Origin: an uncultured Sphingomonadaceae bacterium
GTDB lineage: Bacteria; Pseudomonadota; Alphaproteobacteria; Sphingomonadales; Sphingomonadaceae
Length of the DNA: 64,000 nt
Assembly: GCA_947489315.1 (NCBI GenBank)
Contig: CANLCX010000002.1
Location: forward strand, 806,001-870,000
Direction: 5' to 3'
Positions within the stretch are counted from its first letter, which is position 1, and every line of letters starts with the position of its first letter. Below are positions 8,655 to 33,454 of the stretch, piece by piece. Under the pieces are notes generated by a model. That model worked only from the letters and a program-made list of their open reading frames with translations. It did no database searches and was not told the origin of the DNA. A program made the translations under genes and the position numbers.

Positions 8655-8975
8655 AAGAACCTCTCTGTCCAAAACCGAGATACTGACCGCGGCTCATCTT
8701 CGTGGCCGGTGTTTCACTTTTCGTGTCAGTTCGTAACTACGCAACTTATGTAGGACTCTTTAGCGCAACTGGGCATGAACCGTCTTGTAAACTATTGTAA
8801 CTATCCGTAAAGTATTGAAATTATATTACAATTTTGTGCAATTTAATCTACAAATGCTGATCCCGCTTTTCTAAAAATGGTGCGCTGCACAAAAATTGAG
8901 GCGAATCGCTTCGCCCCAATCATGTTTTAAGGATGTGATTCGCCGCTATTCAGACCAGCGAGCAAACCGAACCGC
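8655..8975. other. Gene-free stretch of about 320 bases
   Basis: The part from about 8760 to 8890 is visibly AT-rich with repeated TTGTAA-like words and should hold the promoter of the minus-strand hypothetical gene that starts at 8654, though I could not fix a -35/-10 pair. The part near 8891-8920 is the terminator of the methyltransferase gene. No convincing short gene is seen. Confidence 0.55.
8891..8920 (-). terminator. Terminator of the exported methyltransferase gene
   Basis: On the minus strand ATTGGGGCGAA and TTCGCCTCAAT form an 11-bp stem closed by one G-U pair, with a GCGA loop and a following run of T. On the plus strand the same position is an A-C mismatch, which supports the minus-strand reading. 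It lies about 55 bases after the stop at 8976. Confidence 0.8.
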
Positions 8976-26610: not shown

Positions 26611-27969
26611 ATGGCCGATTCTCCTGCACCTCCCATTGCCGCCAAAAAGCACAAACCTATAGACAGTACCCGCATGACGGTGCTGTTCGCGGTCATGCTG
26701 GTCACCGCGTCGGGCAATACGGCGATGCAGTCCATATTGCCGACCATTGGAACGCAGCTGGACATTCCTGATTTCTGGGTGAGTGCAGCTTTTAGCTGGT
26801 CCGCTTTGCTGTGGGTTTATACCGCGCCCAAATGGGCCCGACTATCAGATCATCGCGGCCGCAAGGCGCTGATGCGGCTCGGAATGATCGGTTTTACCGC
26901 ATCCATGGCGCTAGCGGGCCTAGCGCTCTTTCTTGGGCTGCTCGGCTGGTATAGCGCCGTCTGGACCTTCATATTATTTGCTATATTCAGAAGCCTTTAC
27001 GGAGGATTGGGGTCCGCCGCTCCGCCAGCGGTGCAAGCCTATGTCGCCGCCCGCACGGCGCGCGCCGATCGCACCAAGGCGCTGTCGCTTATCTCCTCCT
27101 CCTTTGGTCTCGGTACGATTGTCGGTCCCGCCATTGCGCCCTTGCTGATCTTGCCGGTACTTGGTCTTTCAAGCCCGATGTTTGCCTTCGCTCTTATCGG
27201 CATCATCGTGATGGTCGCACTAGCGCTCAAACTGCCCAATGATGATCCGGGTTTTGAAGCGCGCGGTGTCGTGACTTCGGAACCCTATAGTGCCGCGCCT
27301 TCTGCTGGCAGCCTCAAGGATGACGGCCACGAAGACCAACCAGTTGGGAAGAAATCGGATGCCATCATACCCCCGCGACTGCGTTGGGGCGACAAGCGCA
27401 TCAAGCCATGGCTGGTCACCGGAATCATGGGCGGCAATGCCCATGCGATTATTTTGGGCGTTATCGGCTTTCTGGTGCTCGACCGGCTGGGCCTGAGAGA
27501 AGACCCGAAAACTGCGATTGAGATGACGGGTATTGTCTTGATGTCAGGCGCGGCGGCAACCTTGCTGGCGCAATGGGGCCTGATCCCGCTGCTGCAAATG
27601 GGACCGCGGTCTTCCGTTTTATGGGGCATGTTGCTCGCCGCCATTGGCTGCTTCATCATTGGCATGTCCGATGACCTTTATGGCATCATCATCGGCTTTG
27701 CGGTGAGCTCGCTCGGCTTTGGTCTGTTCCGTCCCGGCTTTACCGCTGGCGCATCCTTGGCGGTCGATCGAGCGGAGCAAAATGGCGTCGCGGGCATAGT
27801 CGCGTCCGTGAACGGTATGGCGTTCATTGCGTCACCGGCGCTAGGTGTCTTGATCTATACTTATGCCAGCGCGCTACCTTTTTGGATCGCGGTGACGATG
27901 TGCGTGTTTATCTTTGGCTGGGGCTTCAAAACGCTAAAGCTAGATGAAGCCCCTGGCCTAGATCGCTAA
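26611..27969 (+). CDS. MFS transporter
   Basis: 452 residues with about twelve hydrophobic helices. The loop between helices 2 and 3 has the MFS signature-like WARLSDHRGRKALMRLG. A hydrophilic stretch of about 55 residues (about 210-265) separates the two halves. It resembles drug/proton antiporters (DHA1 type), substrate unknown. Its stop overlaps the stop of the convergent CDC48 gene in a shared CTAA. An upstream ABM gene is 6 bases away. Confidence 0.88.
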   Translation: MADSPAPPIAAKKHKPIDSTRMTVLFAVMLVTASGNTAMQSILPTIGTQLDIPDFWVSAAFSWSALLWVYTAPKWARLSDHRGRKALMRLGMIGFTASMALAGLALFLGLLGWYSAVWTFILFAIFRSLYGGLGSAAPPAVQAYVAARTARADRTKALSLISSSFGLGTIVGPAIAPLLILPVLGLSSPMFAFALIGIIVMVALALKLPNDDPGFEARGVVTSEPYSAAPSAGSLKDDGHEDQPVGKKSDAIIPPRLRWGDKRIKPWLVTGIMGGNAHAIILGVIGFLVLDRLGLREDPKTAIEMTGIVLMSGAAATLLAQWGLIPLLQMGPRSSVLWGMLLAAIGCFIIGMSDDLYGIIIGFAVSSLGFGLFRPGFTAGASLAVDRAEQNGVAGIVASVNGMAFIASPALGVLIYTYASALPFWIAVTMCVFIFGWGFKTLKLDEAPGLDR

Positions 27970-30302
27970 AACTCGTGTTTGCTGTCGCGCACAGGCGTCA
28001 GCATGCCGGGTGAGACAAAACCAATTGGTTCTGCGCGCATCGCATTTTGTTTCAGCGCCGCTTCCATTTTGGAATATTCTTCCTCCATTTCTGGCGTAAC
28101 CGAGGCGCGGCTGTCTTTCAGCGCTTTCTCAAAATGCTTCATTGATACTTTCTCAACCAGCCCGCCATGTTCGCGCAAGGCATAGAGCCCGGCACGGCGC
28201 ACCAGATCCTCCAGATCAGCGCCCGAATAACGCTCGGCCCGCCGGGCGATGTCGTCAAGATCAACATCCTTGTCTATCGGCATTTCAGCTGTGTGGATGG
28301 CGAGTATCCGGCGGCGACCCTCTTTTTCGGGAACGGGCACATAGACCAGTTCGTCAAAGCGGCCGGGACGCAGCAAGGCGGGATCAACCAGGCCGGGACG
28401 ATTGGTCGCGCCGATCACGATCACCGATTGCATTTCTTCGAGCCCGTCCATCTCAGCAAGGATGGTATTCACCACCCGTTCCGTGACCTGCGAATCCCCC
28501 ATTCCGCCGCCACGCGCGGGGACAAGGCTGTCGATTTCGTCAATGAACAAGATTGTCGGGGCCACTTGTCGCGCACGCGCAAAGAGCCGCGCAATCTGTT
28601 GCTCGCTCTCGCCATACCATTTGGACAAAAGATCACTGGACTTGGTCGCGATGAAATTCGCTTCCGCTTCTCGTGCAACAGCTTTGGCGAGCAAGGTCTT
28701 TCCGGTTCCGGGCGGTCCATAAAGCAGAAAGCCCTTGGCCGGCCTTATACCGAGACGGGAAAACGCCTCGGGGTTTTTCATGGGCAGTTCGATGCCTTCT
28801 TTCAACCGCACCTGCGCGTCATCCAGGCCGCCAATATCTTCCCAGCGAACATCGGGCATTTGCACCATCACTTCACGCATAGCGGACGGCTGCACCCGTT
28901 TCAGCGCTTCGACAAAATCATCGCGGCGCACCACCAATTCCTCCAGCACTTCTGGCGGAACGGTTTCCGATTCCAAGTCGAGCTTGGGCATGATCCGGCG
29001 GACGGCTTCAATCGCAGCTTCGCGGGTCAAAGCGGCAAGATCCGCACCAACAAAACCATAGGTTGTGCGTGCCAATTCCGCTAGATCCACTGCCGGTTCC
29101 AAAGGCATACCGCGGGTGTGAATACCCAATATTTCCTTGCGGCCCCGCTTATCCGGAACGCCGACAACGATTTCACGGTCAAACCGGCCCGGACGACGTA
29201 ATGCTTCGTCAATGGCCTCGGGACGATTGGTGGCTGCGATCACGACCAGGTTAAGGCGCGATTCAAGACCATCCATCAAAGTCAGCAACTGGGCGACTAG
29301 ACGCTTTTCGGTCTCACCCTGCACTTCACCGCGTTTAGGGGCAATCGAGTCGATTTCATCGATGAACAGGATTGATGGCGCCGCCTTGGTCGCGGCTTCA
29401 AAAACCTCACGAAGCTTTTTTTCTGACTCGCCATAAGCGGAACCCATGATTTCAGGCCCATTGATCAGGAAAAATTCGGCGTCGCTTTCATTGGCGACGG
29501 CCCGCGCCAAACGGGTCTTACCCGTCCCCGGAGGACCATGAAGCAACACCCCACGCGGCGGATCAACGCCGAGGCGCGTGAATAATTGCGGATAGCGCAG
29601 CGGCAGCTCCACCATTTCGCGCAGTTGATCAATCGTTTCATGCAAGCCGCCTACATCGTCATAGGTGACGTCTGCCCGGCGATGCTCGGTTGATTCTTCA
29701 TATTCCGGACGCAGTTCGACTTCCGTATTCTCATCAATATGGACAAAGCCTTTTGGCACAGTGGACACCACCATCAGGCGAATCTGAGTCAGTGAAAAAG
29801 CGGGCGCGGCCAGCATTTGCTGCAACTGTGGCGGCATGTCACTACGATCAACCTGCTGCTGACCGTGAGTCGCTACAAAATCTCCGGAATTGAGGGGACG
29901 GCCCATGAAACTGCGTTTTAAACCGGCACCGCTACCCTGCAAGCGCAGGTCTTTTTGCGCCGGTGCAAAGATGACTTTCTTAGCTGGTTTGGATTCGACC
30001 TTACGAATTTCAACAAAATCACCGGAACCGACACCTGCGTTGGCGCGCTGTAGTCCGTCGAGCCGAACAAAATCCAAGCCTTCATCCTCGGGATAAGGCA
30101 ACACTGCGCGCGCAGGCGTTGCTTGCTTGCCGCCTATCTCGACAACATCGCCTTCCATCAGCCCCAATTTACCGAGATTATCGCGAGACAAGCGAGCAAG
30201 CCCGCGGCCACTATCTTCCGGCCGGGCATTGGCCACTTGCAACTTTATCATTTTTGAATCGGATTCAGGGTCAGACTTTGATTCGGATTTGGGATCAGAC
30301 AT
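27966..30302 (-). CDS. CDC48/p97-type double AAA ATPase
   Basis: 778 residues from ATG 30302: an acidic Ser/Asp/Pro-rich head (repeated DPESDS units), the N domain of the Cdc48 family (double-psi barrel, about residues 17-105, then a second part to 175), and two AAA modules. D1 has GPPGTGKT at about 256-263 and FIDEID at 313-318; D2 has GPPGTGKT at about 529-536 and LFIDEID near 590. Both arginine-finger regions (RRPGRFD) are kept. It should form a hexameric unfoldase. Eukaryotic and archaeal relatives work with ubiquitin-type tags or the proteasome; no partner gene lies nearby. A start 17 codons later (MIKLQVANAR) is possible. Confidence 0.93.
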   Translation of the reverse strand: MSDPKSESKSDPESDSKMIKLQVANARPEDSGRGLARLSRDNLGKLGLMEGDVVEIGGKQATPARAVLPYPEDEGLDFVRLDGLQRANAGVGSGDFVEIRKVESKPAKKVIFAPAQKDLRLQGSGAGLKRSFMGRPLNSGDFVATHGQQQVDRSDMPPQLQQMLAAPAFSLTQIRLMVVSTVPKGFVHIDENTEVELRPEYEESTEHRRADVTYDDVGGLHETIDQLREMVELPLRYPQLFTRLGVDPPRGVLLHGPPGTGKTRLARAVANESDAEFFLINGPEIMGSAYGESEKKLREVFEAATKAAPSILFIDEIDSIAPKRGEVQGETEKRLVAQLLTLMDGLESRLNLVVIAATNRPEAIDEALRRPGRFDREIVVGVPDKRGRKEILGIHTRGMPLEPAVDLAELARTTYGFVGADLAALTREAAIEAVRRIMPKLDLESETVPPEVLEELVVRRDDFVEALKRVQPSAMREVMVQMPDVRWEDIGGLDDAQVRLKEGIELPMKNPEAFSRLGIRPAKGFLLYGPPGTGKTLLAKAVAREAEANFIATKSSDLLSKWYGESEQQIARLFARARQVAPTILFIDEIDSLVPARGGGMGDSQVTERVVNTILAEMDGLEEMQSVIVIGATNRPGLVDPALLRPGRFDELVYVPVPEKEGRRRILAIHTAEMPIDKDVDLDDIARRAERYSGADLEDLVRRAGLYALREHGGLVEKVSMKHFEKALKDSRASVTPEMEEEYSKMEAALKQNAMRAEPIGFVSPGMLTPVRDSKHEF

Positions 30303-30422
30303 AGGGGGATGAACTCCTGCCGCTCTTATTGTTTCCAACAAGATAGGGAGGCGTAAGCCATTATGCGACTCTGAATTTGGTTGAAATCTGCCGAAACAGA
30401 CGAGGAGCGCCGGATTTCAGGC

Positions 30423-30453
30423 AAAAAAAAGGCCAATCCCGAAGGACTGGCCT
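30423..30453 (-). terminator. Terminator with UUCG loop and no upstream gene
   Basis: On the minus strand AGGCCAGTCC and GGATTGGCCT form a full 10-bp stem with one G-U pair and a TTCG tetraloop closed by C-G, followed by eight T. On the plus strand the same site has an A-C mismatch and no T run, so the minus strand is the working one. Confidence 0.82.
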
Positions 30454-30500
30454 GTAAAAGTTTTTAGGAGAGGATGCCTGAAAGGCGAGTTCTAATTGGC
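30423..30500 (-). ncRNA. Candidate small RNA with anti-Shine-Dalgarno-like segment
   Basis: On the minus strand one reads a small hairpin (GCCT-TTC-AGGC), a single-stranded ATCCTCTCCTAAAA segment complementary to AGGAGAGG-type ribosome sites, and then a strong terminator. No protein gene lies upstream on this strand for more than a kilobase, so the terminator must end a non-coding transcript. The 5' end is estimated from a weak TTGCAA / CAATTA pair with a 17-base spacer (about 30497-30525). C-rich anti-SD small RNAs are known in alphaproteobacteria; kinship to them is inference. Confidence 0.5.
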
Positions 30501-30541
30501 CGAAAATCGATTATGTTGCAAGTGCGAAAAGAACATCGTGA

Positions 30542-30633
30542 GTTGCATATCTTGCAACATAATAATAGTGATAGGGCCGCGATTTAGCCGATCTATTGCA
30601 CCATTTTGAAATTTTGCGTTGCACAATCTGCAA
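30542..30633. promoter_or_regulatory. Two LysR-type palindromes before the LysR gene
   Basis: GTTGCA-N5-TGCAAC (30542-30558) and TTGCA-N5-TGCAA (30619-30633) share the same half-site. A half-site TTGCA also occurs at 30515-30521 and 30596-30600. They fit the T-N11-A rule for LysR regulators and sit directly before the LysR gene, so autoregulation is likely. Confidence 0.6.
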
Positions 30634-30643
30634 TTAACTGGAT

Positions 30644-31534
30644 ATGACACTGATTATGAGACGTCTTCCTCCCCTACGCGCTCTCGAAGCCTTTATCCGT
30701 GTCGCGAGACTCGGCTCTTCCAAAGCTGCTGCCGCTGAATTGGCTCTTTCTGCGCCTGCTTTAAGTCGCCGAATCAAATCGCTCGAAGATCATATTGGCA
30801 AGCCGCTATTTGAGCGGCGCAACCAATCGATGGTACTCAATGAAGATGGCCAGTTGCTGCTTAGTGCAGTGGCCCCTGCGATGGAGACTATTGGGGAAGC
30901 GGTTGATCAAATGACCGTGAGCGGCAGTGATTTACGACTGCGCCTAGGTGTCCTCCCTCTTTTCGGAGCAACGCGTCTCGTGCCCCGCTTGCCAGAATTG
31001 AGAAAGCTATATCCCAAGCTGCATATTGACGTGGACACGTCTACCCATGCTGAAAATATGCTGGGTGACGTGATTGATGCTGCCATCATCATTGCAGACC
31101 ATGTCGATCCCAATCTCTATGCGGTCAAGCTGGACAGCAACAAGGTGTATGCAATTGCCGCGGCAGATCTAGTGAACGGTCCCAATGGGATTAAAACGCC
31201 GGAAGATTTGAAGGATCACAATATCCTAATCCATAGCGATATGGCGAAAGCCTTTGATCGTTGGAAGGACGCGGTAGGCCTGCCCAATCTTGATCCCGCG
31301 AGCGTCGATCAGATGAATAGCGGGCCTTTGATGCTGGAAGCTGCCGCACAGGGCCTGGGCGTAGCAATCATGCATGGCGGCCATTTCTCGGACGCCAACG
31401 ACCCGCGCCTCGCCCGGTTGTTCGACTATGATATCGACAGTCCCTATTCCTACTGGTTCGTATGCCGCAAACGCGATAAGAAAAACCGTGCGGTGCGGAT
31501 TTTCCACGATTGGGTTGTAAAAGCAGGGCTTTAA
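30644..31534 (+). CDS. LysR family transcriptional regulator
   Basis: 296 residues. Winged helix-turn-helix at the N-terminus (LRALEAFIRVARLGSSKAAA, APALSRRIKSLEDHIG) and a periplasmic-binding-like effector domain (about residues 90-290). The layout resembles the GcvA/AmpR branch. The start may be 30644 or the Met four codons later. Two palindromes precede it. No divergent protein gene lies next to it; the closest minus-strand transcript is the candidate small RNA. Confidence 0.9.
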   Translation: MTLIMRRLPPLRALEAFIRVARLGSSKAAAAELALSAPALSRRIKSLEDHIGKPLFERRNQSMVLNEDGQLLLSAVAPAMETIGEAVDQMTVSGSDLRLRLGVLPLFGATRLVPRLPELRKLYPKLHIDVDTSTHAENMLGDVIDAAIIIADHVDPNLYAVKLDSNKVYAIAAADLVNGPNGIKTPEDLKDHNILIHSDMAKAFDRWKDAVGLPNLDPASVDQMNSGPLMLEAAAQGLGVAIMHGGHFSDANDPRLARLFDYDIDSPYSYWFVCRKRDKKNRAVRIFHDWVVKAGL

Positions 31535-31712: not shown

Positions 31713-31964
31713 ATGCGTTTCAAGACTTTGGCTGCTTTGTCAGCCCTATCCCTTTCGGTCGCACCTGCTATGGCACAATCACAGGCGGTCGCCCCAGTGA
31801 CAAGTGCAAGTGTAGAGCGTGTTTCTGCGACTCAGGAACAAGCAAATAATCTGGGAGGTGGCAGTGACACCATCATCGCCGTACTGGCCGGTGCCATTGC
31901 TGTAGGTTTTATTACGCTAACCATAATCAATAATGATGACGATGATGATCCAGTAAGCCCCTGA
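31713..31964 (+). CDS. Small exported membrane-anchored protein
   Basis: 83 residues: a signal peptide (cleavage near AMA-Q22), a short Ser/Gln/Val linker, a hydrophobic segment (about residues 53-71, TIIAVLAGAIAVGFITLTI) and an acidic tail with five Asp. GGAGAA precedes the ATG. Small proteins of this kind are common in sphingomonads; function unknown. A hairpin follows at 32012. Confidence 0.72.
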   Translation: MRFKTLAALSALSLSVAPAMAQSQAVAPVTSASVERVSATQEQANNLGGGSDTIIAVLAGAIAVGFITLTIINNDDDDDPVSP

Positions 31965-32053: not shown

Positions 32054-33454
32054 TCATTGCTTGGCGGTCAATTTTGCCAATATATTGGATGCAAATATAC
32101 TGAGTGTATCATCACGCGCGCCCATGATGACGATGCGATCACCGGGTTGAGCGATCTGCACAATATGATCACCACAGTCTGGGCGACCGGCTATGTGCTT
32201 AGCCATTCCTCCGGCAGCATTTAAGGCATCAGTAATGGATTCACTGCCAATGCTGCGATCCACTGTGCCGCCGAAATAGACTGGATCGCATAAAATCACG
32301 CGGTCATCGCTATCCAATATGTCCGCGAATACTTCTGCCAGCTCCGCACCCATTTTATGGATCGGGCCAAAACCATGGGGCTGGAAAAAAGCGATGATAC
32401 GGCCGGGGAAGGCTTTCATCGTTTTTAGCGTTGCAGCGATCTTATCGGGATTGTGGCCGAAATCGTCGATCACGCTGATATCATTAGCCGTTCCGACCAC
32501 ATCGAAACGCCGGGCCAGACCATTAAAACGGGAGATAGCCGACACGCTGGTCGCCACCGGCACACCAACCGCAGATGCAGCGGCAATAGCCGCTAGCGCG
32601 TTCGCGATATTGTGCCGGCCTGGCACTTGCATTTCTACTGGATATTGATTGCCTGCAGCCTTCAAAGTGAAGCGGGAACTAATGGGCGCTTCTTCGATAT
32701 CACTGGCCTGAAAGTCAGCTCCGTCTGAAAATCCGAAGCTGATGGCATCCCTTAAGTCGAGTCCGCCGACCAAAGCGACGGTCTCGGCGTCATCCCGGTT
32801 CCAGATGCAATGTTTGGCTTTGCCAGCAAAGTCTCCGAAGAGCTGGCGCAATTCCTCCAGGCTTTTGTGATCCAGACTGACATTGTTCAGCACCGCAATC
32901 TCGGGATCAAACAGAGCGATCGATCCATCGCTTTCATCAACTTCGCTGACCATGATGTCGCCATCTCCCACGCGGGAACTGGCAAAGGGCGCATCATCGG
33001 CAACGAAATTTTTCATGACAGCACCGTTCATGATGGTTGGGTCCAAACCAGCCTCGGTCAATATCCAGCCGATCATGCCCGTCACCGTTGATTTGCCGCT
33101 GGTCCCACCAATCGCGATGCTGCGCGGCGATCCATTAAACTGCTCCGCGAGCAATTCCGCGCGGGTCATTCGGGTACAGCCTAGGCTGTTGGCTTTGGCA
33201 ACATCCGACACGCTGTCTTCAATCGCAGCCGATGCGATCAATATCTGGTCGCCAGAAGTTAATCCGCTACCGTCTTGAGCGAACAGGCCAATACCTTTGG
33301 CTTTCAACCATTCGAACTTGGCAGCCAGCCGCCCCTGATCAAGCGCCCGGTCCGAACCAGCAACGTCAGCGCCATTTTCCCGAACAATCATCGCCAGTGG
33401 CAGCATGCCTGATCCGCCGATGCCGCAAAAATAATAGGATTTGTCTTTACTCAT
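32054..33454 (-). CDS. Mur ligase family protein (MurC/Mpl-like)
   Basis: 466 residues in the Mur ligase layout: nucleotide-binding start YYFCGIGGSGMLPLA (as in MurC), P-loop GGTSGKST (about residues 116-123), central domain with EVDESDG and NNVSLDHKS, and a C-terminal domain with RRFDVVG and IDDFGHNP. It should join an amino acid or peptide to UDP-MurNAc. The P-loop reads GTSGKS where MurC and Mpl have GTHGKT, so it is a diverged branch and not the main MurC. Its divergent neighbour is an LD-carboxypeptidase, an enzyme of peptidoglycan recycling, which suggests an Mpl-like recycling role (inference). Confidence 0.82.
   Translation of the reverse strand: MSKDKSYYFCGIGGSGMLPLAMIVRENGADVAGSDRALDQGRLAAKFEWLKAKGIGLFAQDGSGLTSGDQILIASAAIEDSVSDVAKANSLGCTRMTRAELLAEQFNGSPRSIAIGGTSGKSTVTGMIGWILTEAGLDPTIMNGAVMKNFVADDAPFASSRVGDGDIMVSEVDESDGSIALFDPEIAVLNNVSLDHKSLEELRQLFGDFAGKAKHCIWNRDDAETVALVGGLDLRDAISFGFSDGADFQASDIEEAPISSRFTLKAAGNQYPVEMQVPGRHNIANALAAIAAASAVGVPVATSVSAISRFNGLARRFDVVGTANDISVIDDFGHNPDKIAATLKTMKAFPGRIIAFFQPHGFGPIHKMGAELAEVFADILDSDDRVILCDPVYFGGTVDRSIGSESITDALNAAGGMAKHIAGRPDCGDHIVQIAQPGDRIVIMGARDDTLSIFASNILAKLTAKQ

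Follow-up and report, generated by a model that had tools for sequence, protein, structure and literature searches.

The question raised by this locus is whether a short stretch between a LysR-family regulator gene and a Cdc48-family ATPase gene encodes a small RNA of its own, and to which family such an RNA belongs. The window, meaning the whole 64,000-nucleotide stretch of DNA that was analysed, had been given an initial annotation that placed a small RNA on the minus strand, with a terminator of its own and a segment resembling an anti-Shine-Dalgarno sequence, and that did not recognise the RNA. The comparisons described here support the proposal well, and they also give the RNA a name. Minus strand 30493-30416 matches Rfam RF00519 (suhB/MmgR, alpha-r8) with 46.7 bits against a gathering cutoff of 41, over model positions 1-77 of 77, with E = 1.8e-6 computed for the whole 64-kb window, and membership follows from this covariance-model score. 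It is the sole above-cutoff Rfam match within the 64-kb window and the sole RF00519 match in its own genome at E <= 0.001. The Betaproteobacteria toxic sRNA and MicC were considered as Rfam identities and both scored far under their own cutoffs. The locus is thus covered by a curated model, and a Sphingopyxis SuhB has been studied experimentally (PMC6563040). We consider it highly probable that an independent sRNA gene lies here, one that belongs to RF00519 suhB/MmgR (alpha-r8) and to a sphingomonad branch whose seed is its own. The RNA family has already been described, so the finding itself is ordinary; judged by sequence comparison, the predicted pairing region of this branch is distinct and very strongly conserved, and the new detail is a pair of siblings in one genome. 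The features of the locus are as follows.

27966..30341, minus strand: gene for a Cdc48-family AAA ATPase, on the strand of the sRNA and downstream of it (TIGR01243, 936.8 bits, cutoff 802.65; coordinates are those of the longest ORF, and the true start may be internal)
30423..30486, minus strand: SuhB/MmgR-family (RF00519) sRNA; the mature transcript is predicted at about 61-64 nt (Rfam score; start from promoter spacing)
30423..30453, minus strand: intrinsic terminator with 10-pair stem (30453-30430), UUCG loop and U8 (fold and covariation)
30463..30476, minus strand: C-rich seed CAUCCUCUCCUAAA, single-stranded and able to pair with AGGAGAGG-type ribosome sites by complementarity (fold; identical in 32 same-genus loci)
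30476..30486, minus strand: 5' hairpin GCCU-UUC-AGGC (predicted fold; identical in 32/32 same-genus loci)
30493..30498, minus strand: putative -10-like CAATTA, 17 nt after TTGCAA (read from the alignment)
30517..30530, minus strand: conserved promoter block TTTTCGCACTTGCA with a -35-like element (alignment of 35 loci)
30542..30558, no strand assigned: dyad GTTGCA-N5-TGCAAC, candidate operator upstream of the promoter (genome count; relatives by eye)
30615..30626, no strand assigned: PhaR-like site TTGTGCAACGCA, immediately ahead of the LysR start; the predicted start of the sRNA is about 130 nt downstream of it
30644..31534, plus strand: divergent LysR-family regulator gene (Pfam and NCBIfam; the best NCBIfam match, GcvA, is under that model's cutoff)

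The RF00519 layout of a weak 5' hairpin, a single-stranded C-rich core and a Rho-independent terminator was found here, the hairpin by prediction. Minus strand 30423-30493 (folding z of -3.5) contains a hairpin, then a C-rich stretch left unpaired, then a strong terminator, and with the presumed ends the predicted fold has a 4-pair hairpin, the unpaired segment and a 10-pair terminator (-22.7 kcal/mol). The initial annotation had named the same parts, and its hairpin and C-rich segment before the terminator correspond to GCCU-UUC-AGGC and a single-stranded C-rich stretch in the fold. The terminator that it read on the minus strand, with its stem of 10 pairs, its UUCG loop and its run of eight T, was recovered in full. 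The A-C mismatch that it had reported for the plus-strand version is seen where the minus strand pairs G-U. Among 27 distinct same-genus sequences this pair is G-C in 16, G-U in 9 and A-U in 2, and it is broken in none. This speaks for the minus strand being the one that the RNA represents. It also holds that no minus-strand protein gene lies upstream for more than 1 kb: barring a 93-aa ORF (31226-31507) that sits within the LysR gene, the first ORF to reach 80 aa is 32054-33454. The proposed span of 30423-30500 is right at its terminator end, and the alignment of relatives would move its start from 30500 to near 30486. When the downstream flank was included in the folding, the 5' hairpin paired with sequence beyond the terminator; this pairing vanished with the presumed ends. 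Directly 3' of the U run, minus strand 30416-30422 reads GCCTGAA, complementary to UUCAGGC of the 5' hairpin, and this complement is present in only part of the genus.

The RNA is conserved well beyond the window. RF00519 was matched in 58 of 60 relatives, 57 of them above the cutoff, and the matches include all 31 same-genus relatives. The 31-nt core GCCTTTCAGGCATCCTCTCCTAAAAACTTTT is identical in 32 of 32 same-genus loci (the window copy and 31 relatives). A scan for the exact 23-nt core in one genome for each of 84,980 species found 90 stretches, all 90 in records titled as sphingomonads, and, being exact, is silent on how often the core varies; several Sphingomonas genomes have two such stretches. 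Variation can be seen in 36 further loci, none chosen by the exact scan (29 found by model in other genomes and 7 on plasmids). GCCTT and AGGCATYCTCTCC were kept in all 36 while the terminator sequence drifts, and the remaining core varies, including the stretch after CTCTCC.

Covariation was counted in the 27 distinct same-genus sequences against 500 shuffles, with a structure hand-written from the window sequence. In the terminator all 378 cells are paired, a percentage that none of the 500 shuffles reached. Changes on both sides were found in 4 of its 10 pairs (as many in 9 of the 500 shuffles, and so not clearly above them), there are 21 double-change cells (shuffle mean 6.9, none as high), and the covariation score exceeds all 500 shuffles. 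Further pair types in the terminator were not above background, since 459 of the 500 shuffles reach the value. The 5' hairpin is invariant across the same-genus set and shows no covariation, and thus covariation neither supports nor opposes it. The conservation test put forward in the initial annotation therefore came out in favour of its C-rich segment and terminator stem, both of which are kept in relatives, and its check for compensatory changes was borne out for the terminator stem, with the hairpin speaking neither for nor against. RNAalifold, run on a 40-sequence alignment, predicted the 5' hairpin only and not the terminator, probably because the terminator loops are of unequal length.

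The window RNA has a sibling in its own genome (G000:C1:138273-138344), which adjoins an FGase gene, the published alpha-r8 setting. The sibling was found via weak second RF00519 matches in relatives and is 94% identical to one relative's copy; the RF00519 search of the own genome (E 0.001) did not report it. Similar copies in four same-genus relatives were aligned with it. The window copy has a seed unlike the sibling's, and it lies between the LysR and Cdc48 genes instead of beside FGase. The alpha-r8 core 10-mer is given as UUUCCUCCCU, and an FGase neighbour is stated for most single-copy species (PMC12559287). Letter for letter this 10-mer is absent from the window RNA, which carries AUCCUCUCCU. 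The sibling segment CACCTCCCTGAACCTT is closer to the published core than the window's ATCCTCTCCT, and the sibling has CCUCCCU inside CACCUCCCUGAACCUU. By score the window RNA is filed under RF00519, as a branch whose sequence departs from the published core.

Two models, R1 from 5 FGase-type sequences and R2 from 27 window-type sequences, were run on 147 genomes of the order, own included. Among the 85 other same-family genomes R2 matched 75 and R1 67, with both in 66 and neither in 9. In the 61 other-family genomes R2 matched 10 (none above 38 bits) and R1 18. No R1 and R2 places coincided across the searched genomes, and the two places in the own genome also differ. Of the 20 main RF00519 places in other families (three further places, in genomes outside the 147, were left out), 9 were also matched by R1, none by R2 and 11 by neither. 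Thus, the sibling line of the window RNA is strong within the window's own family, and in the rest of the order sample it is weak or absent. The neighbours, taken about 1.5 kb to each side, differ as well. For the 30 best R1-type loci (own included) these were FGase in 30 and Cdc48 or LysR in none; for the 30 best R2-type loci (own included) they were FGase in none, Cdc48 in 15 and LysR in 16. Six weaker second RF00519 copies in relatives adjoin neither LysR nor Cdc48. One genome (G161, C3:109930 and 110112) has tandem window-type copies 182 nt apart and five matches in all.

Several known members of the family can be compared with the window copy. MmgR, the single copy of the family reported in Sinorhizobium meliloti (PMC12559287), falls under the same covariance model and has a hairpin, a C-rich single strand and a terminator, but its seed differs. 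SisA-D of Caulobacter crescentus are likewise described as sibling sRNAs in one genome, with hairpin, core and terminator and a seed that pairs with mRNAs; SisA is reported to repress several targets through its seed and to be countered by the sponge CrfA (PMC12559287). Unlike the window copy, SisA is described as FGase-linked and carries UUUCCUCCCU. SuhB of Sphingopyxis granuli TFA is reported to be a trans-acting RNA of 61 nt that binds the thnR 5' UTR and lowers translation with Hfq; it acts in catabolite repression, and PHB granules are reported to raise its transcription (PMC6563040). It resembles the window copy in its sphingomonad host, its Rfam name and its length, 61 nt reported against 61-64 nt predicted. 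We infer that it may be the orthologue of the window copy and not of the FGase-type sibling.

The family is also carried by plasmids. Among 72,556 plasmid records searched, 28 had a match, all from sphingomonads, and 6 of these are typed conjugative and 2 mobilizable. Seven of the 28 were examined and all seven match R2 (E 1.6e-9 or better), including the mobilizable Sphingopyxis pSfKp5.2 and Sphingobium pTK3 and the conjugative Novosphingobium pLA1 and Sphingobium pF2. Genes neighbouring the plasmid sRNAs include mobF, transposase and toxin-antitoxin genes.

The start of the RNA was placed from its upstream region. The block TTTTCGCACTTGCA has one exact copy in the own genome and one other place at one mismatch (control 2), and TTCGCAYTTGC of this -35 block is kept in 6 of 7 plasmid copies. 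The counterparts of the -10-like element in the alignment of 35 loci are CATTTA, CACATA and similar. From the spacing of TTGCAA and CAATTA, transcription would begin near 30486, the G of GCC, and the transcript would measure about 61-64 nt. A sigma-70 consensus scan of the region found no promoter, so the promoter is proposed from conservation. Farther upstream, the GTTGCA-N5-TGCAAC dyad occurs at 2 places in the own genome (control 0), and a TTGC...GCAA dyad was judged by eye to be at the same place in most relatives' promoters. The other genomic dyad (G000:C2:712162-712178) is just beyond the 3' end of a DUF4197 ORF.

A second motif suggests that PhaR, the PHB sensor and PHB-binding repressor, may control the sRNA at predicted sites. 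The PhaR motif of S. meliloti is reported to contain YGCRNYGCR, and purified PhaR to shift the mmgR promoter, the site of which holds TTGTGCACCGCA (PMC12542648). The motif was sought in window-type promoters from 138 loci outside the 32 same-genus loci. The placing core was present in 120 of them (121 sites), and 89 distinct promoters were left after duplicates, same-genus copies and those too near the locus end were dropped. The reference point was 8 nt before GCC, and the -10 region was taken as -25 to +5. YGCRNYGCR was found there in 67 of the 89 promoters, compared with a mean of 6.6 and a maximum of 12 in shuffles, in a set whose members are related to each other, 62 of them from the exact-core scan and some perhaps near the window's genus. 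Of the motif matches, 64 share one start position. The 29 model-found loci alone gave 28 promoters (two loci dropped, one giving two), 16 of them with the motif. In FGase-type promoters, for which the reference point is only approximate, the motif was found in 0 of 34 at -25 to +5, and over -160 to +8 in 3 of 34, level with shuffles (3.3). It was also found in none of the 7 plasmid copies in the 75 nt before GCC.

The window's own genus is arranged differently. None of its 32 promoters has the PhaR-like motif at -25 to +5, and 31 of the 32 have YGCRNYGCR near the LysR start, nearly always at the same position. Thus, any PhaR effect here may run through LysR. In the own genome PhaR is present and there are 8 TGCRNTGCACAA sites, compared with 0 for the control: one at a phasin ORF start, one before a glycosyltransferase ORF, the window's, two more intergenic and three inside ORFs. 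The site at the start of the phasin ORF (Pfam Phasin_2) reads TTGTGCACTGCA. Another PhaR-like site, TGCGCTGCACAA at 8881-8892 of the window, is intergenic and lies beyond a methyltransferase-like ORF, on the 3' side. All 85 other same-family genomes have PhaR, and because none of them lacks it, its presence cannot discriminate sRNA association. Across much of the family it is plausible that PhaR regulates the sRNA, either by acting on it directly or, in the window's genus, via the divergent LysR. No link between PhaR and suhB in sphingomonads could be recognised from the titles and first lines of abstracts among the papers listed, in literature mostly from outside the subscription journals.

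The divergent LysR may itself, instead of PhaR, bind the GTTGCA-N5-TGCAAC dyad and control the sRNA. This is compatible with the identity of the sRNA, and we hold it to be a real possibility without favouring it. Of the 31 same-genus relatives, 30 have LysR where it would be expected (in G002 the contig ends before the site), as do 16 of 30 window-type loci over the order, and a dyad of this kind is kept in relatives. However, two other-genus relatives, G033 and G035, have Cdc48 without an adjoining LysR, and the TTGC...GCAA dyad and the -35 block persist in both. Past the LysR gene, an 83-aa ORF (31713-31964) begins with a signal-like sequence, contains a hydrophobic stretch and ends in an acidic tail; it gave no Pfam or NCBIfam match.

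That the element is a leader or attenuator of the downstream same-strand Cdc48 gene, and not a free sRNA, appears improbable. The Cdc48 gene is present in 31 of 31 same-genus relatives. The main copy was examined in 34 relatives, and in 33 of these Cdc48 follows on the same strand shortly past the terminator. The exception, the other-genus relative G032, has the sRNA locus with LysR and without Cdc48. Over the order, Cdc48 is within about 1.5 kb at only half of the 30 best window-type loci, and around the six annotated plasmid copies the genes listed within 3 kb do not include Cdc48. Lastly, the element might be no more than an intrinsic terminator, serving for instance antisense transcription that arrives from the LysR side, with an upstream segment that has no role. 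This would agree with the terminator being the only part to show covariation, but it can hardly be reconciled with GCCTT and AGGCATYCTCTCC staying fixed in other genomes and plasmids as the terminator drifts, or with the conserved promoter-like block immediately upstream.

As a stand-alone sRNA, the RNA would be transcribed from near 30486 to the U run, and its U-rich tail would be bound by Hfq. The CAUCCUCUCCU segment would then pair with AGGAGAGG-like ribosome sites of several mRNAs and block their translation. Because the layout is that of SuhB and SisA and the seed is complementary to AGGAGAGG, the best guess is that it represses translation by covering ribosome sites, and by this analogy the sRNA probably blocks translation of selected messages. 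It would probably report carbon and energy status. The target pattern AGGAGAGGN{0,8}ATG was found at 18 places in the own genome, compared with 7 for the reversed control; one of the 18 is the sRNA's own complement and two overlap each other. Eight places open an ORF of at least 89 aa, and seven of these were scanned with Pfam, giving glyoxalase-like, CMD, GFA and SDR matches and three without a match. The own-genome pattern search gave no convincing target, and the candidates are leads only.

Three results deserve a closer look: the split into two sibling lines, the motif in the promoter and the copies on plasmids. They can be joined in a model that we put forward tentatively, as one somewhat more apt to be revised than to stand whole. 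A second sphingomonad alpha-r8 branch with a nearly frozen seed (GCCUU..AGGCAUYCUCUCC) would have a promoter repressed by PhaR until PHB granules titrate PhaR, so that the level of the storage polymer would be passed on to the silencing of catabolic genes, and copies on conjugative plasmids could impose or rewire this control. PHB-relieved repression by PhaR would account for the way in which suhB transcription tracks PHB in S. granuli. Should the PhaR link prove real, the dependence of suhB on PHB, reported from Sphingopyxis and so far unexplained, would gain a direct mechanism, and the rhizobial MmgR-PhaR circuit would extend to sphingomonads. With two siblings of different seeds in one genome, a division of targets between them becomes testable, and the plasmid-borne copies raise the question of whether plasmids bring their own regulator of carbon priority.
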